64,000 nucleotides of DNA, from assembly GCF_000807775.2 (NCBI RefSeq), contig NZ_CP047385.1, forward strand, positions 992,001 through 1,056,000, in the 5' to 3' direction. The position numbers were made by a program, and so were the translations under genes. How positions within the stretch are numbered: position 1 is the stretch's first letter; every line of letters begins with the position of its first letter. Under the pieces are notes generated by a model. It saw only the letters and a program-made list of their open reading frames with translations. It was not told the origin of the DNA and did no database searches. Shown here piece by piece: positions 27,010-45,461 of the stretch. The DNA comes from Pandoraea fibrosis. GTDB taxonomy: Bacteria; Pseudomonadota; Gammaproteobacteria; Burkholderiales; Burkholderiaceae.

Positions 27010-27100
27010 GGAGAGATGGATGAGCGGTTTAAGTCGCACGCCTGGAAAGCGTGTATAGGTTAATAGCCTATCGGGGGTTCGAATCCCCCTCTCTCCGCCA
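27010..27100 (+). tRNA. tRNA-Ser (anticodon GGA)
   Basis: The acceptor stem GGAGAGA pairs with TCTCTCC, followed by G and an encoded CCA. The anticodon stem-loop CACGCCTGGAAAGCGTG gives anticodon GGA. A long variable arm (TATAGGTTAATAGCCTATC region) is typical of serine tRNA, and the T-arm is GGGGGTTCGAATCCCCC. Its 3' part is the attachment site of the adjacent integrated element, which leaves the gene intact. Confidence 0.97.
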
Positions 27101-27101
27101 C
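27058..27101 (+). repeat. attL: 44-bp direct repeat in the tRNA-Ser 3' end
   Basis: This is the left copy of the repeat that bounds the element. It starts in the variable arm (GGTTAATAGCC) and ends one base after CCA. It is identical to 45418-45461. Confidence 0.93.
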
Positions 27102-28281: not shown

Positions 28282-28502
28282 CAGGCGACGCTCCAAACAG
28301 GGTTCCAGTCAGACGATGACTTTTCCGGCATGCGTCCCCCAAGAAGTGATTCCACATGCGCTCGCAACACGAGTACATGGCCGTCGGGCCTCACCCGATG
28401 TTCGATGCCCATAGAGCGAAGTGCGAAGACTTGGTTGTTTCGCCGCCGTCGCCCCGTCAATTCAGACAGTTCCTCGACGCTGAGAAAAAGCGATGCAGTC
28501 AA
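28281..28502 (-). CDS. DUF4224 domain protein, probable excisionase or integrase partner
   Basis: A 73-residue protein with the DUF4224 pattern FLSVEELSELTGRRRRNNQ and LRSMGIEHRVRPDGHVLVLRAHVES. Such proteins are regularly encoded directly before phage integrases and are thought to be small DNA-binding accessory (excisionase-like) factors. Its stop overlaps the integrase start, indicating coupling. A degenerate copy lies at 45895-46022. Confidence 0.8.
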   Translation of the reverse strand: MTASLFLSVEELSELTGRRRRNNQVFALRSMGIEHRVRPDGHVLVLRAHVESLLGGRMPEKSSSDWNPVWSVA

Positions 28503-28503: not shown

Positions 28504-29283
28504 TCAGTTCTCCTTCGTTGCTAACCAGAAGCTTCCGAGCCCCTGATTCCAAAATGCTTGGCAGTTGTCCAACTTCGCGCCAGCCTCTTGAGCCGCTTCA
28601 AATGCAGTCACGATGGCCTTCACCGGGTCGTCGCTCAAGATGTGGTCGATGGCATCTCGCTCGGGGATCGTAATGCCACGACTCGACCAATAGCGCTTCT
28701 CGTTCATCTTGTGCTCGGCAAAGTCCTTGGTCAGATATTTGCCGAGGTAAGCCGCCAGCTTGTGATGTTGACCTTTCTGACGAAACGGATTGCGCACATT
28801 GACGTTGCCGTTGTCCTCGCCAACGATGGATATCCAGATCGCGCGGAGCACCCTGTAGTTCTGCCGTCCCTTTACCGCGATGTGTAGATGCCACGCGCCC
28901 CGTTTCTGACGTTCCGGAACTGCGATGTACTGGAAGTCCTGAATCTTGTTCAAGCGGCGGCGTAGAGCGTCGAAATGACGCTTCAGGCGCTCCTTGTCCT
29001 GCATATTCTCCCGGTAGGTCAACGTAATCATGCGATCCGCGCCAATGGCCTTACAACGCAATCTGACTTGTTGCTTGGCCCGTTTGGCCGCCGCCATTTG
29101 GTTATCTTCCGAGTTTTCGGATTCGCCGCGCTTGGCTTTCGGCAAGGTGTGAAGCCGCTGGGCGCCCATGTAGCGGTCGAATCGGGTGACGGTGACCTCC
29201 ACCTGACCCTGTCCAAAATTTCGTCCCCTGACGATCCACTCTCGTCGGAAGGCGGAATCGTTCACTAAACTCGGTTCTTGCAT
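28504..29283 (-). CDS. Inovirus rolling-circle replication initiator (HUH Rep)
   Basis: A 259-residue HUH endonuclease. Motif 1 is RMITLTYRENM, motif 2 is AWHLHIAV (His132 and His134), and motif 3 is AAYLGKYLTKDF with tyrosines 179 and 183. It would nick the double-stranded origin to start rolling-circle synthesis of phage DNA. The ATG at 29283 has AAAGGAGC just before it, so I prefer it to a Met 19 codons upstream. It lies two bases upstream of the DUF4224 gene start, at the integrase end of the phage rather than next to the ssDNA-binding gene. Confidence 0.88.
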   Translation of the reverse strand: MQEPSLVNDSAFRREWIVRGRNFGQGQVEVTVTRFDRYMGAQRLHTLPKAKRGESENSEDNQMAAAKRAKQQVRLRCKAIGADRMITLTYRENMQDKERLKRHFDALRRRLNKIQDFQYIAVPERQKRGAWHLHIAVKGRQNYRVLRAIWISIVGEDNGNVNVRNPFRQKGQHHKLAAYLGKYLTKDFAEHKMNEKRYWSSRGITIPERDAIDHILSDDPVKAIVTAFEAAQEAGAKLDNCQAFWNQGLGSFWLATKEN

Positions 29284-29437
29284 GGCAGCTCCTTTGTCAT
29301 GTGTCATCGCGGAGAAGGCGTTGGCCCCGGTGTTCTGCATCGGGGCCTTTTTTCATCCGGATCGAAGTCGAAGTGTTTCTGTCCCGGCTGGATGCCCTTT
29401 GCCACCCCCTTTCTCGTTAAGTGTTACGGATATAAAT

Positions 29438-31105
29438 TTAGGGCGCGCTTCGCGCGCCCCCGCCGTCCTCGACCCTGCGGGCGGCGGCGGTCGCGCGAAG
29501 CGTCGTTCTTTCTTCGATCCGCGCCACTTTGTTGGCGGGAGCGGAAAGGCGGTTTTCAATGAGAGGAGGTGTAGCCGGTGGTGGCGCTTCGGCGGGCGTC
29601 TGGGGTGCTACCCGCTGCTCGGTCGCGCGGGTCGCGCTGAGTCGCGCGTCAACGGCCCGGACGTTGCAGGTGCGTCCGCGGGCATCCATGGCTTCGGCAT
29701 CGGCGCCGACACTCCCGACGCTAGACGTCCTGACACGCTCTACCTGGAGGACGAGAAGGATCTCGGTGTTCGAGGTCGCATCGGCCTGGCTATCGAGGAA
29801 TCGGGGCAGGAAAGACAGTCCCGTGGTGTTGTCGGATGCCTTGTTGGTTGTCAGTCCGCCAATGAGGATGATGTCGCCATCCTGCGAACTGATTTCGGTG
29901 CTCACTTCCCGGGTGTTCAGCGTTGGTGACTTGTTGACGCCAGTCGTCGTTTTCACGAAGTCGCTGATTTGCTGCGAGACGTGCAGATCGATAACGCAAT
30001 CCTTCACGGTCGGGCGCAACTCGAAGATGACGCCGGACGAGTGGTATTCGACCGATTGAACCGGTTCACCGCCACCGCGAGGGTAGGAGACGGACTTGAG
30101 CACCGGGACTTTCTGCCCCACGGTGAGCTTTCCCCGCGAGCCGGATCGGATACGCAGGTTCGGGCTATTGATGACCTGAAATCGTGTGTCTTTCGATAGT
30201 GCCGAAAACACCGTGTCGAGATCTCCCGCTGTGATGCGCACAGCGTTGCTCAGCTTCTCTCCTGTCACCTGTATGGATAGCCCTAAACCTTTGGATAGCA
30301 GATCCAGTGCAAGCTGAAACGCGGAACCATGTTCGCTGCTTTGGGTGACCTCGTAGGCCGTTGCTCGCACAGCGACTTCACCGACCGGCGTATCGACGAG
30401 CGGTAGTAACTCCTGGAGCATCAGAATTTCGGCTTTCGTTCCACGGAAAACGAGCGTGTCGCCTTTCTGGTCGATGAGCATCGCCGCAGAACCGTCGAGG
30501 ATATTGCCGCCCGCTCGTCCCTCGGGTGGGGCAGCGACTTCGCGGTTCACGGTGAACTGCCCTCGAAACACTGGCCTGACGAGATTGGCGAGATAGGCCG
30601 TGTCTCGATATTGGGGGCGATAGACGTAGGTGGATTGCGGTTCCGCGTCTACGCTGATACTTGACCGCTTGAATACGAAGTCGACACCTTGGCGCCTTTC
30701 GATGCCGAATCCGAGAGAATCCAGAAACGTGATCAGGAATGCACGTAGGTCGCCGCGCCTCGTATCGAACCGCATCGAGACCATTCGCGGGTCATCGAGC
30801 ACTTCGGGGGAAATGACATAAGGCGTCTTGATGGCTTCGCCGTAGAGCAAGGAGACGAGCTGCGCCACATTGACGAACTGGAAGTCGAATTTTCCGGATG
30901 AGGGGCTCGGCCTTAATCGAGGGGGCGGGCCACTTGCGTTGGTCCAGTCGGGCGAGTGGGGGCGCTCGACGCTGTCCCGAATCGCCGGGCCGTCATCGTG
31001 AAGGGCTGGCCCTCGGTAATCGATGGGGGCGGGCACGATGCGAGGCTCGTCCGCAAATGATTGGGCTGCAGCGATCAACATCGCGCCGGCGAACAGGGAC
31101 TTCAT
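29438..31105 (-). CDS. Secretin (pIV/GspD-like outer-membrane channel)
   Basis: A 555-residue secretin. A signal peptide (MKSLFAGAMLIAAAQSFA) leads into N-domains with FDFQFVNVAQLVSLLYGEA and NLVRPVFRGQFTVNRE. The secretin core has VGQKVPVLKSVSYPRGGG, SGVIFELRPTVKD and DGDIILIGGLTTNKASD. It would form the outer-membrane pore for extrusion of phage filaments. The C-terminal ~90 residues are Ala/Pro/Arg-rich and beyond the family core. The start overlaps the end of zot by four bases. Many inoviruses borrow a host secretin, so an own copy is notable. Confidence 0.88.
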   Translation of the reverse strand: MKSLFAGAMLIAAAQSFADEPRIVPAPIDYRGPALHDDGPAIRDSVERPHSPDWTNASGPPPRLRPSPSSGKFDFQFVNVAQLVSLLYGEAIKTPYVISPEVLDDPRMVSMRFDTRRGDLRAFLITFLDSLGFGIERRQGVDFVFKRSSISVDAEPQSTYVYRPQYRDTAYLANLVRPVFRGQFTVNREVAAPPEGRAGGNILDGSAAMLIDQKGDTLVFRGTKAEILMLQELLPLVDTPVGEVAVRATAYEVTQSSEHGSAFQLALDLLSKGLGLSIQVTGEKLSNAVRITAGDLDTVFSALSKDTRFQVINSPNLRIRSGSRGKLTVGQKVPVLKSVSYPRGGGEPVQSVEYHSSGVIFELRPTVKDCVIDLHVSQQISDFVKTTTGVNKSPTLNTREVSTEISSQDGDIILIGGLTTNKASDNTTGLSFLPRFLDSQADATSNTEILLVLQVERVRTSSVGSVGADAEAMDARGRTCNVRAVDARLSATRATEQRVAPQTPAEAPPPATPPLIENRLSAPANKVARIEERTTLRATAAARRVEDGGGARSAP

Positions 31106-32163
31106 CGCGATTCTCCGAAGAACCGAGAAGCGGGCTTTTGCCCCGACCATGCAGTGACCTGTTGACCGTCGACCTCACCGATGATCGCGAGGCCACGATT
31201 GCGAAATGCTGATGAGGGCTCGATGCGTAAGCGCCCAGCGTTATCGCTCAGCACGACATAGCGCTTTCCTGTGACCGAGTATTGCCCCACGACGCGCCAT
31301 CTATCGCTAAGCGTCGGAGCGCGGGGCACAAGATCGGATCGCACATTGGTGGGAGCGGGCAGACTTCCGTCCGATTCCACCTTAGTAGGCGACGACTCCG
31401 TGGCCAGTTCGGGATGAAAGAATCGCCAGAGGAGAACCCCAACGCCGGTCCAGCAGCCCACGAAAAGTACGGCGGTCATCCACAGCTTGGGATTGCGCAG
31501 CATGTTTTGCCGGGAATCGATGGCGCGCTCTTTCCCTTTGCCGCCCGCATACGACTGATACAGCGGAAAAATGGCTTTGTCGTATGTTGTGGTCGTGGTC
31601 CCCAGTCGTGCTGCCTTGGTGATCCGCCCGCCGCCGAACATCTCGACGCGATAGCGATTGCCTAGCCCCAATTCCTTGAGCTTCTTCGTGACGAACGTGA
31701 CTTCGATCACCGAGCGTAACTGCCGGTGGAGATCCGTGATCGACTGGATCATCAACGCGACATCGCACGAAACGCCAGTTTCCGGATGCACATAGTGTCG
31801 ATGCATCCGGAAGAAGCGCATGTGCTCGGGGCTGATTTTGTGCGAGACGGACCAGAACTCCCACGCCTCATCGATCGCCACTAGATCGCCTGCTTTGACG
31901 ATTGAGTCGAGGTCCGGCCTCGTTTCGTCGGGAAAGAAGCCTGCCTTGAGAACGTCTGCGTTTGAAATAGGAATCAGCGCGCCAAGCGTTGTCGGGTCTG
32001 CTTTCTTCACGTCCGTGCAGTAAGCGTGAATAGCGTCCGCGTTGATGCCGTCGACATTGGTCACCACACGTCTGCCAGACAAAACCGCTGGCACGATGAC
32101 GCTGCTAACGACCTCATAGCTCTTGCCCGATCCCATCAAGCCTGTGTAAGCGTTGATTGCCAT
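31102..32163 (-). CDS. Zot-family filamentous phage assembly ATPase (pI-like)
   Basis: A 353-residue Zonular occludens toxin domain protein, the morphogenesis ATPase of inoviruses. The Walker A loop is GLMGSGKS at residues 8-15, and Walker B lies in LVAIDEAWEFW. One membrane helix near residues 225-245 (WMTAVLFVGCWTGVGVLLW) separates the cytoplasmic ATPase from a periplasmic tail. It would couple ATP hydrolysis to filament assembly at the inner membrane. The name Zot is a family label; toxin activity should not be assumed. Confidence 0.92.
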   Translation of the reverse strand: MAINAYTGLMGSGKSYEVVSSVIVPAVLSGRRVVTNVDGINADAIHAYCTDVKKADPTTLGALIPISNADVLKAGFFPDETRPDLDSIVKAGDLVAIDEAWEFWSVSHKISPEHMRFFRMHRHYVHPETGVSCDVALMIQSITDLHRQLRSVIEVTFVTKKLKELGLGNRYRVEMFGGGRITKAARLGTTTTTYDKAIFPLYQSYAGGKGKERAIDSRQNMLRNPKLWMTAVLFVGCWTGVGVLLWRFFHPELATESSPTKVESDGSLPAPTNVRSDLVPRAPTLSDRWRVVGQYSVTGKRYVVLSDNAGRLRIEPSSAFRNRGLAIIGEVDGQQVTAWSGQKPASRFFGESR

Positions 32164-32168
32164 GGCAC

Positions 32169-32468
32169 TTACCCAATGATCGGCAAACGCCGGATGAGAA
32201 AGCGTGCTGCCATGGCGCTGACGATCATCGGTGCACCTTGTGAGACGGCAAACAGGTCGAGCCAATACCAAACCCCGGTAGGGATGCCCGAAAACACCTC
32301 GTTAAGCTTGGACACCTGCGGGAAGAGGTTGCTCGATTTGAGGGCGACGACAAATTCGCTGACGACATACCAGAGCGCAAAGAATGTCGCCCACTTGACC
32401 ACCGACGCGCGGAACATAAAGCCCAACGCGGTGTTAAGAACGCTCGCGATAATGGCAAACAGTGGCAT
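32169..32468 (-). CDS. Minor virion/assembly protein pVI-like (DUF2523)
   Basis: A 99-residue hydrophobic protein with three predicted membrane segments (MPLFAIIASVLNTALGF, WATFFALWYVVSEFVVAL and a C-terminal SAMAARFLIRRL region). Position between the adsorption protein and Zot, plus the DUF2523-like pattern, matches the pVI minor coat protein of inoviruses. It begins 8 bp after the stop of the upstream gene. Confidence 0.78.
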   Translation of the reverse strand: MPLFAIIASVLNTALGFMFRASVVKWATFFALWYVVSEFVVALKSSNLFPQVSKLNEVFSGIPTGVWYWLDLFAVSQGAPMIVSAMAARFLIRRLPIIG

Positions 32469-32475
32469 GAGGACC

Positions 32476-34140
32476 TCAGGCGGAGAGAACAATCAAAAGC
32501 GCCATGACCGCGAAGGCCGCGATCATCACCTGGCGAAGTTGTGGCCCAATGCGTTCGGCAATTTCGCAGTGGACATCGATTGGAATGGTGCGATCGAATA
32601 CCTGGAACGTTGCGCGCGGACACTCAGCACCGTGCGAAGGCATCGTCCAGGCTTTGAAGTCGGCCGTCAGCCCCAGGATCGGATCGATGATCATCTTTGC
32701 GGTGGGCGTTTCTTCCAGTGCCGGCTTACCCACTTCGGGGGCGCCACCTAGCTCCATATCGACCTTGACCCGGTTGCCGATATCGACAGTCGGGCGGTTG
32801 ACGACATTCACGTCCTGAACGCCTTCGGTGTTCTTGTTGCGGTCGGTGCCGGGCTCGCCCTCTTCATGGGGATCGCGCGCGGTGTTCGGGTCTATCTCGG
32901 GATCGGGTCTAGGATCGACGCGCGGATCTGTTTCGGGATCGACCTGCTGGTTTGGGTCTTCGCGTGGACGGATGCGAGGAGATATCGGTACCGTCTTGAT
33001 GTCTGGCGGATTGGCGGGCTCGAATACGTCGCCGATATGCGGAACCAGCTTGGGATTCTCTTTGACCCATATCACCACGTCCTCTTCCGTGACGGGCTCC
33101 GAGTCGCGATAGGGGAGTCCCGCATAGTCAGGTGCTTCCGCCGCCTGCTGCCACGATTCATCGACGATGTCGGCGAGCGTCTTGGGGCTGATCGGCATCT
33201 TCATGAGTTCCCGGTTCATGCTGGCGCGCGCTGCGTCCAGATCGGGGTAAATCGATTCCGTTGTCATCCGGTTGAACCCGTAAAAGGCGTCGCGGCTGAT
33301 GTCGAATACGGCTGGGTTCAGTTCGAGCGTCACCCATTCATGGGGCGCGGGGCAAAAGGGCGGGGCGTCGTCGTAGCAGGGCCGGTGTTTGTTTGTCCAC
33401 ATGCGTTCAGCAAAGCCTGCGAACTCGCCGTAGTCATCGAGCAATTCGATGATTTTCAGTTGCGGATCTGTATCGCCGGGCTGGAACAACCAACGTGTGC
33501 GCAGTGCCTCTAGCTCAGATATCGACGTGAAGGGGATGCGAATTCCGTGTTCTGGATAGGACAAGGCGATGCCGGCGGACTCTGGCGGCAGTAGCGGAAA
33601 TTCGTGACATGCGACTCGGGTGTTTGTGGGGGAGCATCCATGCGTTCTATACACATGTGCCCCGAGGCGTCTGAGAGTTTCGAAAAGCGGTTCGTGGGAG
33701 GGAGACGTCTTGAAGTCCGGGTAGGGCGGTAACTTCACGGGTTCCGTGCGCGGGAGCTTGCTCGCGAGCGCAACGGAACCGTCATAGGTCTGTCCGATAG
33801 CGACCTCAGCGTCGCCCAATGATGCGATCAATTGGCTACCCGCACCGACGATGCCGAGCCCCGCGAGGATTGTCAGCCAGACGGGCGCGCCAGCAAGGGA
33901 CAGGCCGATGCCCGCGCCGGTTGAGACAACGTTTAGCGCTGTGCTCGATGACGAGATTGCTTCTAACGTCGCAATAACGCGAGCGTCGTTCGCAGCGAAA
34001 CCGCGGGAGGCTGCTATCCGCGTAATGACGCCAGCGATGGCGCGATTCATGGCGAAGTTCGCGACGGGGAGCGCTTGCGGTATTGCCGGCTGTGGTGCGA
34101 GGAGGGCGAGTAGCGCTAAGGCCACCATTGCTTGTTTCAT
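32476..34140 (-). CDS. TspB-like virion adsorption protein (pIII analogue)
   Basis: A 554-residue exported protein. A signal peptide (MKQAMVALALLALLAPQPA) is followed by a large extracellular region. An Asp/Pro repeat linker follows at about residues 420-460, with DPxxDP units such as DPETDPRVDPRPDPE. The C-terminal domain CPRATFQVFDRTIPIDVHC ends in a membrane anchor IAAFAVMALLIVLSA. This layout and the C-terminal pattern match the TspB family, inovirus proteins in the pIII position that recognise the host receptor. The receptor here is unknown. The ATG at 34140 is preceded by a ribosome binding site (AGAGGATAACG). Confidence 0.78.
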   Translation of the reverse strand: MKQAMVALALLALLAPQPAIPQALPVANFAMNRAIAGVITRIAASRGFAANDARVIATLEAISSSSTALNVVSTGAGIGLSLAGAPVWLTILAGLGIVGAGSQLIASLGDAEVAIGQTYDGSVALASKLPRTEPVKLPPYPDFKTSPSHEPLFETLRRLGAHVYRTHGCSPTNTRVACHEFPLLPPESAGIALSYPEHGIRIPFTSISELEALRTRWLFQPGDTDPQLKIIELLDDYGEFAGFAERMWTNKHRPCYDDAPPFCPAPHEWVTLELNPAVFDISRDAFYGFNRMTTESIYPDLDAARASMNRELMKMPISPKTLADIVDESWQQAAEAPDYAGLPYRDSEPVTEEDVVIWVKENPKLVPHIGDVFEPANPPDIKTVPISPRIRPREDPNQQVDPETDPRVDPRPDPEIDPNTARDPHEEGEPGTDRNKNTEGVQDVNVVNRPTVDIGNRVKVDMELGGAPEVGKPALEETPTAKMIIDPILGLTADFKAWTMPSHGAECPRATFQVFDRTIPIDVHCEIAERIGPQLRQVMIAAFAVMALLIVLSA

Positions 34141-34142
34141 CG

Positions 34143-34229
34143 TTATCCTCTCAAGCCTTGAACAACCGCCCATCCGCATACGACTCCCCAGGCGAAGAAA
34201 GTCAGATCCCACAGTTCTTGCGTCGGCAT
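34143..34229 (-). CDS. 28-residue membrane peptide, probable minor coat protein
   Basis: The ATG at 34229 opens MPTQELWDLTFFAWGVVCGW and ends VVQGLRG. One short hydrophobic helix ends in a basic residue, like the tiny pVII/pIX tip proteins of filamentous phages. GGAGACC lies 4-10 bases before the start. The stop is two bases before the adsorption gene start, so the two are coupled. Conservation cannot be judged here. Confidence 0.6.
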   Translation of the reverse strand: MPTQELWDLTFFAWGVVCGWAVVQGLRG

Positions 34230-34242
34230 GATGGTCTCCGGT

Positions 34243-34279
34243 GGCCGAGCGCTCGACACGCGCGATGGAGCGCTCGGCC
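34243..34279 (-). terminator. Strong hairpin after the major coat gene
   Basis: GGCCGAGCGCTC and GAGCGCTCGGCC form a perfect 12-bp stem with a 13-nt loop, starting 12 bp beyond the coat-protein stop. There is no T-tract. Filamentous phages characteristically have a partial terminator directly after gene VIII, which this hairpin resembles in position. Confidence 0.6.
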
Positions 34280-34290
34280 ATGCTCAACGA

Positions 34291-34545
34291 TTAGCCTTTG
34301 ATAACGCCGAGCACGATCTTTGCGCCGCGTAGCGTGGCATACACGGTGACCAGCGACAGGGCGACAGCAAGGATTGCGGCGGTGGTGGAGCCCATGTTGA
34401 TGCCGTTGGTCAGTGAGGACAGGTCAGGGCCGCCACCTCCGCCGCCACCGCCATCTGCCTTAGCCAAGCAGGACGCCGTACCCAACGTAATGCCGAGAGC
34501 GGTTCGCGTGACAATCGAGCGAAGGTGTTGAAGTGCTTCTTTCAT
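34291..34545 (-). CDS. Inovirus major coat protein precursor (pVIII-like)
   Basis: An 84-residue precursor. The leader MKEALQHLRSIVTRTALGITLG ends in an AKA cleavage site around residue 42. The mature part starts with an eight-glycine run, continues with PDLSSLTNGI, and has one membrane helix (TTAAILAVALSLVTVYATL) and a basic C-terminus (RGAKIVLGVIKG) that would contact the phage DNA. This is the classic major coat plan. It is followed by a strong hairpin. Confidence 0.85.
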   Translation of the reverse strand: MKEALQHLRSIVTRTALGITLGTASCLAKADGGGGGGGGPDLSSLTNGINMGSTTAAILAVALSLVTVYATLRGAKIVLGVIKG

Positions 34546-34592
34546 AGTTACTGACTCCAATTGAGATGCCGGGATGCGCCCGGCGCGCTGGC

Positions 34593-34868
34593 TCAACCTC
34601 GACGGATGAAGCCGAGGACTGCGCCCACATGGGCACTCACGAACCAAAGGCCGACGACGGTTGTGAATGCCAATGTCCAGAAGCCCGCCATCTGTACGGT
34701 GTCGAGTGAGGTGGCGGGTGCATGTGCTTGCGCGATTTCGGGGTCGACGGAGACAAAACTGAATTGCTGGCCGTTCTCTGGCGGGCAGAGCTCGCGGTCA
34801 AGGGCGGTAATCGCCATCGGTGGGCGAATGGGTTGGCAGGCCAGCAGACGGATGGTTTGGTCTGTCAC
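34593..34868 (-). CDS. Inovirus membrane protein of unknown role
   Basis: A 91-residue protein from the GTG at 34868, which has GGAGG six bases before it and overlaps the upstream stop (GTGA). The N-terminal part is polar with CQPIRPPMAITALDRELCPPENG. The C-terminal segment MAGFWTLAFTTVVGLWFVSAHVG is a membrane helix ending in RRG. Position just before the coat gene suggests a minor coat or assembly component; no family is recognised. Confidence 0.65.
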   Translation of the reverse strand: MTDQTIRLLACQPIRPPMAITALDRELCPPENGQQFSFVSVDPEIAQAHAPATSLDTVQMAGFWTLAFTTVVGLWFVSAHVGAVLGFIRRG

Positions 34869-35029
34869 GCGCAGCCTCCGTGTGCACATTGCTGGCCTTT
34901 CGCCGCGCGAATGCACTTAGGAAGCGGATGGCCGTCGTAGTCCGAGGTTTGGGCGGCGAGCGAAAGCGTTTGTTTGGCGCGTGCCGGGCCGAAGCGGTCG
35001 CGTAGGCTGAGTAAGAACTGTCGGAACAT
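34865..35029 (-). CDS. 54-residue cysteine-containing inovirus protein
   Basis: The ATG at 35029 opens MFRQFLLSLRDRFGPARAKQ and ends CIRAAKGQQCAHGGCA with three cysteines in the last 16 residues. The stop overlaps the GTG of the next gene (GTGA), a strong coupling sign. It is basic and soluble. It lies between the ssDNA-binding gene and the coat genes; function unknown. Confidence 0.55.
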   Translation of the reverse strand: MFRQFLLSLRDRFGPARAKQTLSLAAQTSDYDGHPLPKCIRAAKGQQCAHGGCA

Positions 35030-35150
35030 CGCAACCCCCAATCTCCATCACGGCTAATGAGCTGCGACGGTGTTAAGAATCTGGCGGGGGGCCGGATATA
35101 GAAGATGAGTTATCGGCGTCTACATGAAGACGCGACGCAAGGCGGGAAAA

Positions 35151-35459
35151 TCAGGTTGTGGATTTGCCGGAAGTTGCGGGGCGCGCGCCGCTCGCACAGG
35201 GATGCAGGGCTACAATGCGCGGAACTAGATGACCATCCATCGATTGAGAAAAGGCGAATTCCGCGAGGTATTCGCCTTTGGTCGTTTCCTTAAGACCGTC
35301 CGGCAGCATGACTCGGCCGACGACGGCTTGATCGCCTTCGCTTGTCGATTGGTAGAGCACGCACTGTGCGGTGCGCATGTCGTAGGGACGCCCCGTCTTA
35401 CTTGAGATGCCTTCGAGTCGCGTGACGTCGATGATGATGAGCTTTTGTTTGCTGGTCAT
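35151..35459 (-). CDS. Inovirus single-stranded DNA-binding protein (pV-like)
   Basis: A 102-residue protein with the small OB-fold pattern of phage ssDNA-binding proteins: KLIIIDVTRLEGISSKTGRPYDMRTAQCVLYQ. It would coat progeny ssDNA and switch replication to packaging. GGTGACC lies just upstream of the ATG at 35459. It is the first gene of the leftward phage operon, divergent from the repressor. A 121-bp gap to the next gene (35030-35150) shows no ORF and could hold an origin or promoter. Confidence 0.75.
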   Translation of the reverse strand: MTSKQKLIIIDVTRLEGISSKTGRPYDMRTAQCVLYQSTSEGDQAVVGRVMLPDGLKETTKGEYLAEFAFSQSMDGHLVPRIVALHPCASGARPATSGKSTT

Positions 35460-35504
35460 AAGGTCACCGGTTGCATGTGAGCGGCAGCAGGGGAATCCGA
35501 GCTA

Positions 35505-35555
35505 CCGATGCCTAGGAATTAGACATGCCTAAAGTATAGGTTTCCATGTCTGGAA
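35505..35555. promoter_or_regulatory. Divergent operator region of the inovirus
   Basis: Between the ssDNA-binding gene and the repressor-like gene lie ATGCCTA at 35508-35514 and again at 35525-35531, exactly 17 bp apart. An inverted repeat AGACATG (35521-35527) and CATGTCT (35545-35551) overlaps them, and CCTA-n5-TAGG is nested inside. This is a likely binding region for the divergent HTH protein. Confidence 0.45.
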
Positions 35556-35576
35556 CGTATTTGGGGAAATTCCGAG

Positions 35577-35855
35577 ATGCGCGAGCGTATCTGCGAACTC
35601 ATTGAGCACGTCGCCGACGCCGACCGATGTTGGCGGGAGATGGAGGACTTCACGGGTATCCCGTCGAAGCGGTGGCAGAACGTCTCGCGAGGTCTGCAAC
35701 GCCCGACGTCCGAGATGATTGAAGCCATTGGTGAAGTCTGGCCGCAGTTTGCTTTCTGGTTGGTAACGGGGCGCACGGACGAGGCGAGCGGGCATATCTC
35801 ACCCGCCCTGGAGCAAGTGGCTCGGGACTTAAACAAAATCCGGAAGGCTGGGTAG
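35577..35855 (+). CDS. Small HTH-type phage repressor/regulator
   Basis: A 92-residue protein with a helix-turn-helix-like segment, WREMEDFTGIPSKRWQNVSRGLQRPTSEMIEAIGEVWP; the phrase IPSKRWQNVSRGLQRPTSEM matches the recognition region of XRE-like phage regulators. It is the only rightward gene of the phage core and is divergent from the replication/structural operon, the normal place for an immunity repressor. Which promoter it represses is inference. Confidence 0.7.
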   Translation: MRERICELIEHVADADRCWREMEDFTGIPSKRWQNVSRGLQRPTSEMIEAIGEVWPQFAFWLVTGRTDEASGHISPALEQVARDLNKIRKAG

Positions 35856-36994: not shown

Positions 36995-38551
36995 CTAGAA
37001 AAGCTGGCGTACGATTTGCGCGATTTTTTTTGCGAGCAAGGGAGGCACAGCGTTGCCGACTTGGTGGTACTGCTGGGTTCGATTGCCTTGGAATATGTAA
37101 TTATCGGGGAACGTTTGCAGTCGAGCAGCTTCCCTCACGGTCAGACTTCGGCATTGACTGGGATCGGGATGAATAAAATAGTGGCCATCCTTGGAAATAT
37201 GGCTTGTTATTGTTGTCGATGGTTTTTCCAAAAGCTGAACCCGGAATCTGTCCGAAAACTTTCCACTTTTCCAGTTCGCATGATTCGGGTGCAACAATTC
37301 ACTCAGGTTGAAATCTTCATGCCCTTTGGGGGATTGCCCATTGGCCTTCGCGAATGTACTCGCAAATGCATATCGCATGAGGTCCGAGTCCATGTGGCCT
37401 CGCGCCTCATGATTCATCCAAACTTGGAGATGCTCGTCCTCTAGCCATTCCGCAAGCGGAGAGTCCAAGGTGCATGTCGGGTCCTTTGGCACCCGTAGTC
37501 CACCAGAACTCAAGCTATCTGCTACGCCGATGAGCCCACGTTGTAGTTCTGCAAGGATCCCGTTTTGTCCGCTAAATGTCGCTGCTTGAGACAGACTGCT
37601 AAAGTGCGTTCGGACAACGCGTGCCCACTCGTCGGGACTGTCTTTCCGTTTGCTAAGTTTGCTTCTGAGTGGCGGCAAGGATCCAATCGCGTCATTAAGC
37701 GTGGGACATTTGGATTGGAATTTTTCTAAAAAATGACTGATCGGTTGATCCATGTCCTCTCGCACGCCCAAGAGAATCACGCGGTGGCGAGCTTGTGGAA
37801 TGCCATAGTTTTCCGTACGAACCACGAACTTCCGAACATCAATGTCCTCGAGAGCCATTTTCCTGTCGAACATTGCTTCTTCGGAAAGCGAATAGATCGT
37901 ATAGCCACCCCTACGTGTTCGCTTGCCTGCTACAGCTAGATCTGGATCCGAAAGGTCTCTAAGAATCGAATGGAACACAAGCTCGCCACCAACCGTTGAT
38001 GAGAGAATCCCCTTGACATTCTCCATGACAAATACGGCAGGTCTATATTTATGGATGATTCGTAGGTATTCCTTGTACAGGAAGTGCCGATGGTCGTTTT
38101 CCGGACGATAATCACTTTTACCCTTATTTCTGGCCCGACCGACTAACGAATAGGCTTGGCATGGAGGGCCTCCAATTAGAACCCACGGTGCGCGCGAAGA
38201 CAGACGGTGCTTCCTGATTTGAGCATCCAGTGTAGCGTTGCCCTCGGGGGTGCCAAGCGTAAGTTGCAGGGCTTCCGACCTCGCCGTCTTGAGCGCTTGC
38301 TGTGCCAGCGGGTCGCTAATGATGTCTCGCCCCTCGTTGCAGAAGTCATAGTAGGCCTGAAGTGCAGAACCTCCCGCTCGTTTAAGTTCACGAAAGACCG
38401 ATCGCAACTGGAGCGTCTTGTGCGCATGTGGGTCCATCTCGGCCGAAACTACGATTTGAAATGGTTCTCCTTCAAGCGAGGAAAAACCCTCCCCGAGTCC
38501 ACCTGGGCCTGCAAACAAATCAACGATCGGTATGGACTGTTTTCTTGACAT
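36995..38551 (-). CDS. C5-cytosine-specific DNA methyltransferase
   Basis: A 518-residue Dcm-family enzyme. Motif I is DLFAGPGGLGEGF (residues 11-23), motif IV is GGPPCQAYS with the catalytic Cys131, motif VI is FVMENVKG, motif VIII is QARHRVILLG, and motif X is GNAVPPLLAKKIAQ. It is longer than Dcm (472) because of an extended region between motifs VIII and IX. The target sequence cannot be predicted. It is divergent from vsr with only about 60 bp between starts. No cognate restriction endonuclease is recognisable next to it. Confidence 0.93.
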   Translation of the reverse strand: MSRKQSIPIVDLFAGPGGLGEGFSSLEGEPFQIVVSAEMDPHAHKTLQLRSVFRELKRAGGSALQAYYDFCNEGRDIISDPLAQQALKTARSEALQLTLGTPEGNATLDAQIRKHRLSSRAPWVLIGGPPCQAYSLVGRARNKGKSDYRPENDHRHFLYKEYLRIIHKYRPAVFVMENVKGILSSTVGGELVFHSILRDLSDPDLAVAGKRTRRGGYTIYSLSEEAMFDRKMALEDIDVRKFVVRTENYGIPQARHRVILLGVREDMDQPISHFLEKFQSKCPTLNDAIGSLPPLRSKLSKRKDSPDEWARVVRTHFSSLSQAATFSGQNGILAELQRGLIGVADSLSSGGLRVPKDPTCTLDSPLAEWLEDEHLQVWMNHEARGHMDSDLMRYAFASTFAKANGQSPKGHEDFNLSELLHPNHANWKSGKFSDRFRVQLLEKPSTTITSHISKDGHYFIHPDPSQCRSLTVREAARLQTFPDNYIFQGNRTQQYHQVGNAVPPLLAKKIAQIVRQLF

Positions 38552-38612
38552 ACTTCATAGAGACTTCGGAGAGCGGGAACCACTTGGCCGTGGAAAATCC
38601 AGGATACCAGGA

Positions 38613-39035
38613 ATGGTAGATATCGTCGACGAAAACACTCGCTCCCGGATGATGTCGAATATCAGGGCGAAGGATACCAAGCCGGAGATGATCGTTCGGC
38701 GGTATTTGCATGCGCATGGCTTCCGCTTTCGGTTGCACGATAGACGGTTGCCAGGTACACCGGATTTGGTGTTGAGAAAGTACCGAACCGTAATATTCGT
38801 GCACGGTTGCTTCTGGCACCATCATGCCGGATGTCCCAAGGCGTACGTGCCTGCGTCAAACACGGATCAGTGGATGAGGAAGTTTGAGCTGAATCGAGCC
38901 CGCGACGCAAGGTGTTCGGAAATGCTTGCAATAGCAGGATGGTCCATCATCGTGGTATGGGAGTGTGAGCTTGGGGCAAATAGATCCGCTACAACGTTGC
39001 TCAAATTGCGCGAAACCCTATTAGGCTCACTCTGA
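38613..39035 (+). CDS. vsr: Very-short-patch repair endonuclease Vsr
   Basis: A 140-residue Vsr-family endonuclease, which nicks at T:G mismatches created by deamination of 5-methylcytosine. Conserved residues match E. coli numbering: catalytic Asp51 in LPGTPDLVL, His64 and Cys66 in FVHGCFWHHH and His69, followed by AGCPKAYVP. The start MVDIVDENTRSRMMSNIRAKDTKPE is the family N-terminus; upstream frame is ignored. Its pairing with the divergent C5 methyltransferase is functionally coherent. Confidence 0.93.
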   Translation: MVDIVDENTRSRMMSNIRAKDTKPEMIVRRYLHAHGFRFRLHDRRLPGTPDLVLRKYRTVIFVHGCFWHHHAGCPKAYVPASNTDQWMRKFELNRARDARCSEMLAIAGWSIIVVWECELGANRSATTLLKLRETLLGSL

Positions 39036-39071: not shown

Positions 39072-39097
39072 TTCGCCCCGTGTCACTACGGGGCGGC
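39072..39097. terminator. Hairpin between convergent vsr and receiver gene
   Basis: CGCCCCGT (39074-39081) pairs perfectly with ACGGGGCG (39088-39095) around a 6-nt loop, without a T-tract. It lies in the 95-bp gap between convergent genes. Confidence 0.4.
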
Positions 39098-39130
39098 GCA
39101 AGCTCATGAGATAGATGGCGATGCGGACGA

Positions 39131-40300
39131 CTAGTTTGGGTGTGAGTAGTCAGGGGTTCCGATTCGACTAAAGAATGTTCCAAGTCGCTCGACTAGTGAG
39201 GGCAAGAATTCGCCGGTCAACGCGGCCACTCGCACGCCAGGAAATTGGATGTTTTCATTCACAGGGCGTTCAACGAAGCGCACCTTGTCAAAGCGCACCA
39301 TAAATGGCCCCAAGGATCTGTCTGCAAGCTTCATTTGGGGCAGGAAGTGTAAGTTTGTCTTGCTTCGGTGCTGCGTGAATTTTCTTAGTTTCTCCTCCGC
39401 GGCTCCTAGTTTCTCCAACGGCTTTTTAGTATCTGTGCCTTCAGCTGCGGCAGCTGCCTCATACGCTCCCTTGGCGGCGTTGACTGCGTCAACTAGCGCT
39501 TGCCACTCCGCTGATACGTCCTCGCATACAGCGAGCTGAATGGTATCTCCGCGGGTCGCAGGGCGAGCGAGGTCGCATCGGGGTGTGATTACGATTTCGA
39601 GGCCGGCAGCGAATTGCAGAAGGTCGCCGGTGCGAAGACCGTCCCGTATTGGCGGTACAAAGTACCACTCCTCGGGGTGCGCGACCTGATTTCCTCGCTC
39701 TTGGAGTGTGGCGTAGACGTGCGAGGTGATATGACGAGTAATTGCGCTTTGAACCTGATTTTGGCTCGGTTGGTCGACGATCCAATTAGCCCAGCGAGGC
39801 CAAATGGATTTGGCGAAGATTTTCGCCATTTCACGGCGAATCGCCTCTTGCGCGGCTTGAATGTGCTCAAGCATGGGCGCTTGCTCCGTCAACCAACGCA
39901 TCACGGCATTAGTGCCATCGCCATCGTCGCCCCCCTTCACAAAAATACGGACAGACCCCCTCGCGTATTCTGGACTGTCGACCAACTTCGTTTCACCCGT
40001 GAAGGCTGCGACTGCGGCCATCTCTGCTTCCAGTATCTCTTTTAGAGCGTCATTGCCGTCAGTGTTTGGTGCGGCGTTGCCATTCTCCAACTGCAAACGA
40101 ATGTCGACAATGGCTGCATCGAAGTTGCTAGTTGCAATACACTTTCGGACATTAGTTAACGTAGATGCGAACTGAGCTTCAATAAAAAAGCCGTGCCCCG
40201 TGTCTTGGGTGTCGGCATTGTGCATATCAAATTGACGCTTCCATGAGTTTTGTTCGTCAATGTCATCTTCGACGATGAGTACTCTCATTTGAAAAGTCAT
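39131..40300 (-). CDS. Receiver-domain protein with unrecognised C-terminal domain
   Basis: A 389-residue protein. Residues 5-130 are a CheY-like receiver with the acidic pair Asp12-Asp13 in VLIVEDDID, the phosphoacceptor Asp66 in DAAIVDIRL, a Thr in AAFTGE and a Lys in RIFVKGG. An insertion rich in Asn/Asp follows the phosphosite. The remaining ~250 residues are not a known DNA-binding output; they contain PPIRDGLRTGDLLQFAAGLE and VITPRCDLARPATRGD and a helical Ala/Lys/Glu segment. It starts 18 bp after the GHKL gene with GGGGA before the ATG, so the two form an operon and probably a signalling pair. Confidence 0.75.
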   Translation of the reverse strand: MTFQMRVLIVEDDIDEQNSWKRQFDMHNADTQDTGHGFFIEAQFASTLTNVRKCIATSNFDAAIVDIRLQLENGNAAPNTDGNDALKEILEAEMAAVAAFTGETKLVDSPEYARGSVRIFVKGGDDGDGTNAVMRWLTEQAPMLEHIQAAQEAIRREMAKIFAKSIWPRWANWIVDQPSQNQVQSAITRHITSHVYATLQERGNQVAHPEEWYFVPPIRDGLRTGDLLQFAAGLEIVITPRCDLARPATRGDTIQLAVCEDVSAEWQALVDAVNAAKGAYEAAAAAEGTDTKKPLEKLGAAEEKLRKFTQHRSKTNLHFLPQMKLADRSLGPFMVRFDKVRFVERPVNENIQFPGVRVAALTGEFLPSLVERLGTFFSRIGTPDYSHPN

Positions 40301-40318
40301 TAAAAATCCCCGATTATT

Positions 40319-42514
40319 CTAATTGCTAACTGGAAACTCGATAATAAAAGTTACATCAGGGGAGTTTTCATCAAATCTTAGATCCCCCATGCTTGCGCGG
40401 CATGCCTCGCGTGCGATGGCGAGGCCAAGTCCCGTGCCATCTGATTTTAGGCTAGCCCCGGCCTGAAAGAGACGTGGAATGTAATTTTCATCGATAAGCG
40501 GACCATTGTTTGAAATTGAAACAAGAACATTTTTTTCGTTCTTCTTGCTTGTAATTATGATTTCCCCGTCTGGGTTGTTCTTTGTCGAAATCCAGTAAAT
40601 GGCATTTTCGACGATATTCATTAGGGCTGCCTGAAAATCCTCGATATAGCCATAGGCCTTAATATCTGAGGGGACGTCGAGTTCAATGCGAATGCCGTGG
40701 TCGGCCAAGGACGCTTCGAAGAGGTCGACTGATGCACCAATCGGATGAATTACCGAGAATTCCACGGGGCGACCTCTGCGCCGACCGGAAACTGGGTCGA
40801 GCTTCTTAAATAGACGACTAAGCCCTTTGGTTCCGTTATTCACAACCTCTATCTGGCTGGGAAATTGCTTTCTCGCAATCTCTCCCTTCTTGCTCGCGCC
40901 ATCTGTCACAAATTCAATGTTTTCGGCGAGAGCTTTTCCCGCGGTAGCCATCGGATTCAGAAGACGTCGTCCTTCGTGAATGACCTGTGCGACAACCAAG
41001 CCCAATGCGGCTCGTGATTGAAGAAGTTTCTGGTACTCTTCAATCTGATCTAACGAGCTGGTTAGTGCTGTTGAGTCCTTGGCAATAGCCTTCTCTATTG
41101 AGCCCCTGAATTCCACCGGGAGCTTGGCCACGGCTTGCGAGACTGCATGGAGAGCTGCAAGCGTTTTTGCATGGGAGACATCTGCCCGTGGGCGACGACT
41201 TAGTCCCGCCCGCTCGCGATACTCCAATCGACGATCTTCGGCATAAATCAGTACGTCGCCAACCAGGCGCTTTAGCCGTTCGAAGGCCCCGTTATGCTCT
41301 AACCCCTCGCGACTACTGCGTTCCACCAGCCTATTGGTGCCCTCAGAGCCAATGTAAATGCTGCCGGATACCTGAGATATACCCAATTTTTTAGACGGAT
41401 TTTGTACTCGCTGTCTCTCAAGTTCGAGCCAATCATTTTCTGGTTCGCCGTAAGGTCTGATTCTGAATCCGCTTCGAAAGATTGCGATGCCGGCGTAGTC
41501 GCTCAAGATCTTTCTGGCATCGCGAATTCCAATTTGTTCGAAGTTTAATCCCATTCTGGAAAAAAGAGCGGATACTGACTCTGCTTCTCGATCATAAATG
41601 TTGATGCGGACGTCAAAAGCTCCGCAGGGCTCTTCGTCTTCTCGAGGTTTCGAAGAGTTCATCTCCAGAGGTAACGGGTGATTGTCGCCCTTGCAAATGG
41701 TGAACGTTCCGAAAAATTGCCCATCCTCATCGAATCTACCTTCCAGGATATAATCGGCGATGTTGGATATTTCGAAGGGCCGTATTAAATTCGGATTTTC
41801 GACATCATCGGTATTCTGCAGGTGAGTGAAGTTAAGCTTTTCGAATAAATCTTTGCCGTCGAAACCGGTAGTGGATTGTGTAAAATCAGAGATATCGAGG
41901 TGAATATCAAATTGATCACCTGCTATGTTCGGTGATGCAACTCTTCTCAACTCACGAATCAACGATTCCAAGCGTTTTTTTGTCCAGGTATCGCGAGTCG
42001 AAGTGATTTCTAGACTCACTCCGGTTGGATGTGAACTTCCCTGCGGCAGATATCGCTGACTGACCGGAATGTCTATGTCATCGAGATAGTTTTCGGCGGT
42101 GAAAATATCCCAATCGACTGACAATTTAACTTCTTCTTTTCTTCCCGAAGCATCGACGGCGACTGACTTCAGTGCGGTAAATCTTCCGAGCCGTGATGCT
42201 GCGAAGCGTCCAATGCCCTTCGCTCCAAGTAGTCGTCGCCCGCGCGGACTTACGCATCTACGTAATTTTTCGTCGGTTGCCGGTTCGAACCAACCATTCA
42301 CGACCGTTTGAAGTGTCATACCGTGTCCTGAGTCCTGGACACTGATGGCACCTCTAGGGACCGCGTCGTTCGGTGGCGTGATCTTGATTACGACAAACGC
42401 TGAATCCGCATCGTAAGCGTTCTTCACTAGCTCAATAAGTGCTGCTTCGGGGCCGCTAATAAGTTGATCCCCGATCGTTCTTATAATTCGCGCGCGCGGT
42501 CTCAGCTTTGCCAT
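40319..42514 (-). CDS. Double-GHKL protein: MORC/HSP90-like ATPase fused to histidine kinase-like module
   Basis: A 731-residue protein with two GHKL ATPase folds. The N-terminal one is HSP90/MutL/MORC-like: N box EAALIELVKNAYDADS (residues 23-38), VQDSGHGM (59-66) and LLGAKGIGRFAAS (95-107). The C-terminal one is histidine-kinase-like, with an H box VIHEGRRLLNPM (His513), an N box LMNIVENAIYW, ISNNGPLI in the G1 position (usual Asp replaced by Asn) and GTGLGLAIAREACR. There is no membrane segment, so it is cytoplasmic. The next gene encodes a receiver. Related MORC-like ATPases are known beside restriction-modification systems, and a C5 methyltransferase lies here too. Its role is inferred, not known. 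Confidence 0.82.
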   Translation of the reverse strand: MAKLRPRARIIRTIGDQLISGPEAALIELVKNAYDADSAFVVIKITPPNDAVPRGAISVQDSGHGMTLQTVVNGWFEPATDEKLRRCVSPRGRRLLGAKGIGRFAASRLGRFTALKSVAVDASGRKEEVKLSVDWDIFTAENYLDDIDIPVSQRYLPQGSSHPTGVSLEITSTRDTWTKKRLESLIRELRRVASPNIAGDQFDIHLDISDFTQSTTGFDGKDLFEKLNFTHLQNTDDVENPNLIRPFEISNIADYILEGRFDEDGQFFGTFTICKGDNHPLPLEMNSSKPREDEEPCGAFDVRINIYDREAESVSALFSRMGLNFEQIGIRDARKILSDYAGIAIFRSGFRIRPYGEPENDWLELERQRVQNPSKKLGISQVSGSIYIGSEGTNRLVERSSREGLEHNGAFERLKRLVGDVLIYAEDRRLEYRERAGLSRRPRADVSHAKTLAALHAVSQAVAKLPVEFRGSIEKAIAKDSTALTSSLDQIEEYQKLLQSRAALGLVVAQVIHEGRRLLNPMATAGKALAENIEFVTDGASKKGEIARKQFPSQIEVVNNGTKGLSRLFKKLDPVSGRRRGRPVEFSVIHPIGASVDLFEASLADHGIRIELDVPSDIKAYGYIEDFQAALMNIVENAIYWISTKNNPDGEIIITSKKNEKNVLVSISNNGPLIDENYIPRLFQAGASLKSDGTGLGLAIAREACRASMGDLRFDENSPDVTFIIEFPVSN

Positions 42515-43047: not shown

Positions 43048-43881
43048 CTATGCCTCGCCGAACAACTCCTCGAATCCTTCCTTGCAAAGCTTGAGCATTG
43101 CTTCGGGTTCCTTTTTATCAGGGGAAATCTCCGCCGCCTCGCGGATGACGTCGTTCATCTCAGAAAATAGTTCTTTGACGCCGTCACGAACGGACTTTTG
43201 CTGGTTGGGATGCTGCGTGTTCTCAAGTTTCTTCCAGATGGGGGCGAGGTCGGTCTCGATGGCCCCATTGAAAATCTGAAGTGTATCGTGGATATAGAGC
43301 ACATCCTGTGCGCGTTTTTTCCCGACCCGCTTGTCCCTGATCAGAAGCTTCTGGATCATAAAGCTCACAGGATTCGGCACTCTCAGATCCGCTACTGCCT
43401 CGCCCAATCCAGACTCATCCTTCGGGATGGTCACAAACCAAGGGTCGTAGAGCAGTACTTCTAGGTAGCGGAGCTTTTGTGCGACAACACCTGCGTGTTG
43501 TTCGGTGGCATCGTCTTGCAATACCCCATGCTCATCGCGTTTTTTTCCGCTGCCCGTGAGTGGCGTGAGGAACTCCGCGTAAAATCCATTCGTGCCGTCG
43601 CTTAAGTTATAACGCATGGCTGGTGGCCTGAACTCACCAGCAAGGTTCGGCTCCTCCGCGAATCCTGCTCCTGCCAAGGCCTTCTTGATATCACCTTCGA
43701 GAGGTTCGCGCTTGTCGTATGCTACATCTGCGTCTCGGGTGAAGATCGGAATGTGATCTGCCGTGTAAGCGCGCGGCTCATAGCGATAGAGTCGGAATGC
43801 CCAGCCACCAATGAAGACGATCTGCTTGCGCCATGGTTCAAGGGTCACCGCAAGTAGGCTAAATTCGGCTAGTTCGCTCAC
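43048..43881 (-). CDS. AbiEii-like nucleotidyltransferase (toxin candidate)
   Basis: A 277-residue protein from the GTG at 43881, which overlaps the upstream stop as GTGA and has GGGAG seven bases before it. The nucleotidyltransferase fold is indicated by VFIGGWAFRLY (Gly25-Gly26) and TRDADVAY with Asp50 and Asp52 as the metal pair, followed by the helical region LRVPNPVSFMIQKLLIRDKR. This is the pattern of AbiEii/type IV toxins that transfer nucleotides to tRNA or other targets. The partner upstream gene is AbiEi-like. Toxicity is inferred. Confidence 0.68.
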   Translation of the reverse strand: MSELAEFSLLAVTLEPWRKQIVFIGGWAFRLYRYEPRAYTADHIPIFTRDADVAYDKREPLEGDIKKALAGAGFAEEPNLAGEFRPPAMRYNLSDGTNGFYAEFLTPLTGSGKKRDEHGVLQDDATEQHAGVVAQKLRYLEVLLYDPWFVTIPKDESGLGEAVADLRVPNPVSFMIQKLLIRDKRVGKKRAQDVLYIHDTLQIFNGAIETDLAPIWKKLENTQHPNQQKSVRDGVKELFSEMNDVIREAAEISPDKKEPEAMLKLCKEGFEELFGEA

Positions 43882-45014
43882 ACTTTTTCTCCCGCGATCT
43901 TTGCCAGCACACCGTGCTCGAGTTCGGCCGCTTGCTCCGCACCGCGCCTCGGGTCTGCTGAAACGTCCAGCCATGTCTGGATGACGTCTGACACCCATAT
44001 CCCATCTCGCATCACTCGCCCACGAAGCAACGAATTGGGGTATGGGTGCTGTTTCAGAATGAAATCAGGCCGCTCGCCTTCGCGCGCCCGACGGAGGCCC
44101 CGCCAGTTTTCACTGGTTATGAGATCAGGCACCCACAACGTCGCTGTTGCGCCATTTACGTGCCCTACGCCGAGTGCGTGCGCGGCAGAAAACTGCCCCA
44201 GTGTTGCCCCCTCTTCCCGTTTGAGCGTCTTACGTAGCTGCTCCTCAGGCACGCCACTCGCGAGAAACTTCATTGGCACACTGACGGCCGGCTTCGCGTA
44301 TGCGGCCTTCCATCGTTGCGCAAGCTTGCGTCTTTGGATGATTCTCAGGTGCGGCGCGAACTCAACCAAATTCTCTTCCTTCAGGGCATTGACGAGACGT
44401 GTAGCGGTCATGACCGATACGTCAGCTTCGCGCGCAAGCTCGGTCGCTGTCCGATATGTCCTTTCTGGAGCGTTAATTAGGTTGTCGCGTTTGATGTCCG
44501 ACGCCAGCAACAGCTTGAGCATCCATTGGGCCAGATCGGAAAGAACGAGTGTTGGTGGTGCCGAATGGCTCATTCGCCGCATAGCTGCGCTCGGCTCGTT
44601 GGCTTCCAGACCAGGAAAATCAACATACAGCGGCGTGTCCGACAGGAGGGCGATCGGTTCGCCTTCACCATATGTATGCTGAAAATCCCGAACCTTGTTG
44701 ACGAGGGTCGGTGATGCAACGCCCACCCATAGGAGGACGGCTGGCCGAAACTTTTCTTCACTTGCGTTTGCGTGAGCGCGCGATTCAAGCAGTGCCTGCG
44801 AGAACAGCGGTATCACACGATCTGTTCGTCCCTCTGTCAGCGCTTTGAGTACGGCGTGGTACTTTTCACCATGAGGACTGGTCAGGACAAAATCTGCGCC
44901 CTTGTCATCCGCTCGGCCCTCCTCGATCTCCCAGCCCCCGTTCTCAAACAGCGTACGCACGGAGTCCCGCGCTAGGCGCTCGGCAGCTCTAGTTCTGAAA
45001 TGGTGGTTACTCAT
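43878..45014 (-). CDS. AbiEi-like HTH regulator/antitoxin
   Basis: A 378-residue protein. Residues 187-220 form a winged-HTH (TYRTATELAREADVSVMTATRLVNALKEENLVEF). N-terminal residues 20-100 look like a restriction-endonuclease-type fold (GWEIEEGRADDKGADFVLTS, then EKYHAVLKAL and PAVLLWVGVAS), perhaps degenerate. The C-terminal half resembles AbiEi antitoxin tails. It is the first gene of the pair and overlaps the nucleotidyltransferase gene by four bases. Four phased repeats just upstream suggest it autoregulates, as AbiEi antitoxins do. Confidence 0.65.
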   Translation of the reverse strand: MSNHHFRTRAAERLARDSVRTLFENGGWEIEEGRADDKGADFVLTSPHGEKYHAVLKALTEGRTDRVIPLFSQALLESRAHANASEEKFRPAVLLWVGVASPTLVNKVRDFQHTYGEGEPIALLSDTPLYVDFPGLEANEPSAAMRRMSHSAPPTLVLSDLAQWMLKLLLASDIKRDNLINAPERTYRTATELAREADVSVMTATRLVNALKEENLVEFAPHLRIIQRRKLAQRWKAAYAKPAVSVPMKFLASGVPEEQLRKTLKREEGATLGQFSAAHALGVGHVNGATATLWVPDLITSENWRGLRRAREGERPDFILKQHPYPNSLLRGRVMRDGIWVSDVIQTWLDVSADPRRGAEQAAELEHGVLAKIAGEKV

Positions 45015-45417: not shown

Positions 45418-45461
45418 GGTTAATAGCCTATCGGGGGTTCGAATCCCCCTCTCTCCGCCAC
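45418..45461 (+). repeat. attR: 44-bp direct repeat of the tRNA-Ser 3' end
   Basis: Identical to 27058-27101. It contains the T-arm, 3' acceptor strand and CCA of the tRNA but none of the 5' half, so it is not a functional tRNA gene. Confidence 0.93.

Follow-up and report, generated by a model that had tools for sequence, protein, structure and literature searches.

The kinase and receiver genes

We analysed a 64,000-nucleotide stretch of Pandoraea fibrosis DNA (contig NZ_CP047385.1, positions 992,001 to 1,056,000), called the window below, and in it a pair of adjacent genes whose products we regard as a candidate DNA-sensing signalling system. One gene encodes a kinase with two ATPase modules, the other a receiver. 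The pair lies in an 18.36-kb repeat-bounded integrative element at tRNA-Ser (27058-45461), which also holds an integrase, inovirus genes, a C5-cytosine methyltransferase, a Vsr endonuclease and an NTP_transf_8/winged-helix gene pair (Table 1).

Table 1. The kinase-receiver pair and other features of the integrative element in the window.
Feature	Position	Strand	Remarks
MORC-HK sensor, 731 aa	40319..42514	-	MORC ATPase+S5 1-433; DHp-like helices with H513 467-575; CA ATPase ~580-731
Receiver protein, 389 aa	39131..40300	-	REC ~1-128 with D66; long helices 129-202; beta-rich PxCD domain ~205-389, C242 and G381 invariant
C5-cytosine DNA methyltransferase, 518 aa	36995..38551	-	sole PF00145 gene found in this genome
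Vsr very-short-patch-repair endonuclease, 167 aa as listed	38532..39035	+	
tRNA-Ser(GGA), integration target	27010..27100	+	
44-bp direct repeat over tRNA 3' end	27058..27101	+	left end of element
Exact second copy of the 44-bp repeat	45418..45461	+	right end of element
Integrase	27184..28296	-	Pfam Phage_integrase, just above cut-off
Inovirus-like genes: rolling-circle Rep, secretin (pIV-like), Zot-domain protein, virion protein, SSB, regulator	28504..35855		
NTP_transf_8 nucleotidyltransferase	43048..43998	-	element cargo
Protein with weak winged-helix matches	43878..45014	-	element cargo

The kinase carries the GHKL and S5 cassette of a MORC ATPase module, followed by the halves of a histidine kinase. 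This double-ATPase protein with a receiver as its partner had been remarked on in an earlier reading of the sequence alone (the sequence-only reading), and the domain architecture and the adjacency of the genes bear that observation out. Residues 11-213 of the kinase match the BbrUII/HgiDII restriction-enzyme model NF050001 (E 1.2e-12), at 47.3 bits, far under its 550-bit cut-off; the resemblance is to the N-terminal part of that enzyme only, and the rest is unmatched.

The receiver has the expected fold, with an acidic pocket and a phospho-Asp. Its C-terminal domain is marked by a PxCD motif around the invariant Cys C242, with P240 in 63 and D243 in 54 of 64 aligned receivers. For the window protein this domain has no match in Pfam, NCBIfam or PADLOC, and none better than E 0.9 among PDB sequences. 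Profile scans of the receiver recognised no DNA-binding output domain, and the Foldseek and VIA match lists are dominated by the REC domain. Across the 64 receivers, taken as whole proteins, PADLOC models are hit by some (PDC-M60B 26, PDC-M60C 16, SduA 6). Comparison of the PxCD domain with MazF/PemK (PF02452 members) gave an hhalign probability of 1%; the global score was equalled in 2/150 column shuffles and the local score in 7/150, and the reversed control was locally higher (16.85 vs 16.0). Small proteins matching the PxCD profile, without a receiver, are encoded at two further loci (L178:92-631 and L179:2707-3375). A neighbour of the first resembles what we take to be the TIGR04255 family, and a search of 274 genomes at E<=1e-5 found no other relative of the first protein outside its own genome.

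Conservation among homologous pairs

Homologues were drawn from the best 80 of 571 genome loci, so that the survey is tilted to close relatives, and from IMG/VR, where a scan with the single kinase sequence found no relative and an alignment scan found 66 viral loci, 6 of them with a receiver at E<1e-20. The 71 loci with a receiver at that threshold reduce to 63 distinct loci after removal of eight duplicates: L001 and L006-L010, which coincide with the window or with L014-L017, and L039 and L086, on the contigs of L015 and L016. Gene calls at these loci are longest open reading frame (ORF) choices, not annotations. Kinase and receiver genes are adjacent, as an operon, in the window and at all 63 loci. 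The conservation alignments comprise 55 kinases, window included, and 64 receivers.

The N-terminal HATPase_c_3 and the C-terminal HATPase_c are both present in all 55 kinases. So are E28, N32, D61, K99, G100, G102 and R103 of the N-terminal ATPase, together with H513, N633, N637, G695 and G697, which represent the H, N and G2 boxes of histidine kinases. In the receivers, D66, C242 and G381 never vary (64/64). This invariance suggests constraint on both of the ATP-binding N boxes, on the phosphoacceptor His and on the phospho-Asp.

The G1 box departs from this pattern. Its DxGxG is not present in the window kinase, where it holds N669 and L673 within the CA ATPase; among the aligned kinases the Asp is kept in 51/55 and the second Gly in 50/55. 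Asn replaces the Asp in four (the window, L021, L104 and L085), and Leu replaces the second Gly in the window and L021. One could suppose from this that the relay is vestigial, at least in the window's clade: a working N-terminal ATPase would loop or compact DNA as a MORC clamp, with the kinase half kept as a dimerisation scaffold and the receiver as a binding partner. The N-terminal motifs, identical in 55/55, agree with this as well as the G1 changes do, but the complete retention of the relay residues in kinases and receivers does not, and some active kinases have Asn at the G1 Asp position. We consider a vestigial relay unlikely, though plausible for the window's clade.

The closest relative found is L021 (Duganella margarita), with a kinase 51% identical to the window's; genes for an FRG-domain and a GmrSD_N-domain protein lie directly upstream of that kinase (L021:7190-8985). 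A GIY-YIG (LEM-3-like) protein is encoded directly upstream of the homologous kinase of L104 (L104:8417-8992), on a contig with phage genes.

Gene neighbourhood and distribution

The sequence-only reading had proposed a survey of the pair for co-occurrence with methyltransferases, and this co-occurrence is found. A C5 methyltransferase lies within seven genes of the pair in 49/63 loci, and anywhere in the sequence examined around the locus in 53/63; as a yardstick, PF00145 is matched in 22/94 sampled genomes of the class, own included. Distances between kinases correlate with those between receivers (r 0.92) and with those between methyltransferases (r 0.54) over 50 systems, and 0/2000 permutations reach either value, shared ancestry not being removed. 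Vsr is found within seven genes in 28/63 loci and in all sequence examined in 37/63. A co-directional run around the receiver (gaps <=80 bp) containing only kinase, receiver, methyltransferase and Vsr genes is seen in 45/63 loci.

The frequency of Vsr, and a MutL-Vsr parallel discussed in the portions of Iyer et al. (PMC2292703) available to us, would fit a role in repair, with the pair as a MutL-like partner of Vsr that couples repair of 5-methylcytosine (5mC) mismatches to signalling. Against it, Vsr is not seen in 26/63 loci in the sequence examined, a receiver and a kinase are unnecessary for such repair, and the distribution is sporadic. A repair role is quite improbable in our estimate.

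Nucleases are represented unevenly. Among the 123 flanking proteins, within the 25 of 87 families listed, are EcoRII-C (4), HNH_2 (2), AspBHI N-terminal (2), HaeIII (1) and DUF4420 (1). At L014, L015 and L004, by comparison, the methyltransferase, kinase and receiver (with Vsr in L015) are hemmed in by other genes, and the gaps left would not fit another sizeable gene. Nuclease genes thus occur at some loci and not at others, and unrecognised nucleases may exist elsewhere in the loci or genomes. In the window, no nuclease except Vsr that could be the cognate endonuclease of a type II restriction-modification (R-M) system was found among the element ORFs scanned; a few short ORFs were compared with PHROGs only or were unscanned. 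Nor were the DISARM partners drmA, drmB and drmC found in the six proteins scanned around the pair, where, among the matches listed, only the methyltransferase matches Drm models (DrmMII-like).

The pair is sporadic. The kinase is found at E<=1e-30 in 6/274 genomes, own included, and the receiver in 0/40 other genomes searched, 24 of these of the same genus; there is no DNA match in E. coli genomes. With its position inside a tRNA-borne mobile element, this supports the sequence-only reading. An ordinary housekeeping two-component system sitting by chance in an island is hardly credible. It is true that L014, L015 and L017 appear, from a reading of their neighbours, to be flanked by housekeeping genes, and that ThiC and Cu-oxidase_4 occur once each among the listed flanking families, the locus not being named; however, a methyltransferase stands beside the pair in those three loci too, and such a system would not be expected to be missing from the 40 genomes or enclosed between the repeats of an element. 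In the phages collection, seven records match the kinase; two of these matches, at 25-27% identity on unannotated faecal contigs, span almost its full length. No record matches the receiver at E<=1e-3. Contigs L102, L104 and L107 also carry phage tail, replication and integrase, or terminase genes.

EcoRII-N-like domains in homologous kinases

Some homologous kinases carry an added domain related to a restriction enzyme. Two of them, from L023 (Duganella guangzhouensis) and L103 (IMG/VR), each share 40% identity with the window kinase and are longer by ~390 residues at the N terminus. The first part of this extension, like a comparable segment in L043 (Opitutales), gives a match to EcoRII in its N-terminal region, a domain that recognises DNA. 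L043 alone matches PDB 3hqf (E 1.5e-7), EcoRII 1na6 (E 3.5e-7) and a plant B3 domain (E 1.5e-5); a profile of all three sequences matches 3hqf at E 1.2e-8 and 1na6 at E 6.3e-8. Searched against the ORFs of 166 loci, which contain 164 kinase ORFs, duplicates included, the profile finds one further kinase, that of L098 (Chitinophagaceae, E 2e-7), so that the domain stands at the N terminus of 4 of the 164. On an EcoRII-N-like domain combined with a kinase, the literature search turned up a single paper, which concerns a plant factor. Kinases L027, L101, L102, L103 and L023 share a further N-terminal extension of ~190 residues, which follows the EcoRII-N-like part where that occurs.

Relationship to described systems

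The sequence-only reading called the pair a candidate new module, and this has to be withdrawn in part: Bellieny-Rabelo et al. (2021, PMC8011034) had already described a larger version of it, as a putative two-component system lying next to R-M genes. According to the accessible parts of that paper, HEF_HK/Response_reg_2 pairs show 91.6% linkage in 644 regions, the kinase has the architecture HATPase_c_3+HEF_HK+HATPase_c, the neighbours are a C5 methyltransferase and Vsr, and a soluble two-component system tied to R-M is proposed. The double HATPase architecture, the adjacency of the genes and the C5 methyltransferase neighbourhood are shared with our pair. The sizes differ, the window kinase having ~730 aa vs 993-1003 aa in L019 and L020, and the receiver 389 vs 555-617 aa. 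Neither defining Pfam model is matched: PF19191 (HEF_HK) by 0/55 kinases at E<=0.01 and PF19192 (Response_reg_2) by 0/64 receivers at E<=0.1, while the L019 and L020 proteins match as positive controls. Filing under HEF_HK/Response_reg_2 was rejected for this reason, despite profile evidence of common descent, seen for both of the kinases compared and for one receiver out of two. On sequence comparison, the window family is a diverged, compact sister subfamily. What is added here is the EcoRII-N-like fusions, the compact loci too tight for a nuclease gene, the invariant Asp66 and Cys242, and the altered G1 box of the window; PMC8011034 mentions EcoRII only as EcoRII-C among neighbours and does not use the term 'DNA-binding'.

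Other relatives cover one part or another. Iyer et al. (2008, PMC2292703) described prokaryotic MORC/paraMORC families of R-M operons; the word 'receiver' is absent from its text, and a histidine-kinase half is not described in those passages. For the N-terminal half there is a precedent in GHKL-Shedu VcSduA, whose N-terminal GHKL ATPase is reported, in the sections at hand, to be required for phage defence, which E27A abolishes; its effector is a fused PD-(D/E)XK nuclease, vs a kinase and receiver here (PMC12137116). In DefensePredictor, HATPase and REC are among the domains that a figure legend gives for systems predicted but unvalidated, and section 8 of that source does not name them (PMC13092281). 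EcoRII (PDB 1na6) resembles the extension of homologous kinases in its N-terminal part, and EcoRII-C proteins lie beside the pair at some other loci, whereas the window has neither domain.

A possible mechanism

We tentatively favour, at somewhat less than even confidence, the interpretation that the pair is a methylation-coupled DNA sensor signalling by phosphorelay, a sensor probably directed against foreign DNA. The C5 methyltransferase would mark self DNA, and Vsr would mend the T:G mismatches created by 5mC. The kinase protein would close on DNA as an ATP-dependent MORC clamp; unmodified (foreign) target sites, or a stalled clamp, would send a signal down the long DHp helix, and the kinase half, on receiving it, would phosphorylate the receiver, from H513 to D66. 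Phosphorylation would then free the receiver's PxCD output domain. Where a nuclease gene is missing, this domain may act unaided on the foreign DNA or on the infected cell; where one is present, as with the EcoRII-C, HaeIII and HNH neighbours of some loci, it may instead license the cognate nuclease. The input side, DNA sensing, draws support from the domain anatomy, from linkage to the methyltransferase and from the fused DNA-recognition domains. A stricter version, which we regard as doubtful, is restriction without a nuclease: the methyltransferase would mark self, the MORC clamp-kinase would read unmodified sites, and the His-Asp phosphorelay would fire a receiver-borne PxCD effector.

Several observations weigh against a phosphorelay sensor. 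N669 and L673 in the G1 box suggest that the window kinase could be weak or dead. No activity of the PxCD domain is identified from sequence. A methyltransferase is not seen in 10/63 loci, some with sequence ending early, and a related kinase is found without a receiver match at E<1e-3 in 24/80 genome loci and 53/66 viral loci. L103 and L023 singly match 3hqf at only E 0.022 and 0.046, and therefore L043 carries the significance of the EcoRII-N match; the three-sequence profile also picks up a designed TIM barrel (E 5e-6), a sign of noise. The sequence-only reading had suggested an intracellular cue such as foreign DNA. The four homologous kinases lend this indirect support, but no EcoRII-N-like domain is present in the window kinase or any window ORF. 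In the literature we found no functional work on the pair, including any phage, restriction or phosphorylation assay.

Finally, the association with R-M genes also fits the main rival, that the pair regulates its R-M neighbours by sensing an intracellular state (nucleoside triphosphates, DNA damage or phage takeover) and tuning the expression or activity of the methyltransferase and nuclease. We think this rather unlikely. The gene neighbourhoods would be the same, the pair adjoins R-M genes that differ in kind from locus to locus (EcoRII-C, HaeIII, HNH) as well as methyltransferases of 311-721 aa, such a role was speculated on by Bellieny-Rabelo et al. (PMC8011034, in its accessible parts), and in Marinomonas a CRISPR-Cas system is reported to be regulated by a histidine kinase and a response regulator (PMC8523701, the portion available). 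However, the receiver is without a recognised DNA-binding output domain, the compact loci L014, L015 and L004 leave no nuclease to regulate, and the EcoRII-N-like fusions place DNA recognition in the sensor.

The common picture of a restriction system is a nuclease that reads DNA directly. If the phosphorelay sensor is real, two-component signalling would be joined to self/non-self DNA discrimination next to a methyltransferase, with a MORC-type clamp, which some relatives fuse to the recognition domain of a restriction enzyme, as input and a receiver as output. The pair would also offer a bacterial setting in which to study what the MORC ATPase does, a function known largely from eukaryotic silencing. 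If the version without a nuclease holds as well, DNA recognition would be converted to an intracellular phosphosignal, and PxCD would be a new effector family, also found without a receiver at L178 and L179.

The integrative element

The element joins filamentous-phage genes to defence-type cargo. The two cargo genes beyond the kinase are, we presume, AbiEii-like (the NTP_transf_8 protein) and AbiEi-like (the winged-helix protein); no relative of the former recurs near the pair in the 63 loci. No empty integration site is shown among the genomes compared, G002 keeping the right flank only, with no tRNA within the 26 kb examined there, and the whole element has no near match among plasmids. The left flank, tRNA included, has a match of >=80% in 26/30 other genomes of the genus, and a second copy of the tRNA end (84-100% identical, same contig and strand, within 40 kb) was counted from the listing in 13/30. 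We infer therefore that the tRNA-Ser site is a hotspot. In a Xanthomonas phage, a 43-bp stretch near the integrase gene is 97.7% identical to the site. Just outside the element there is a large autotransporter gene (window 48356-51874).

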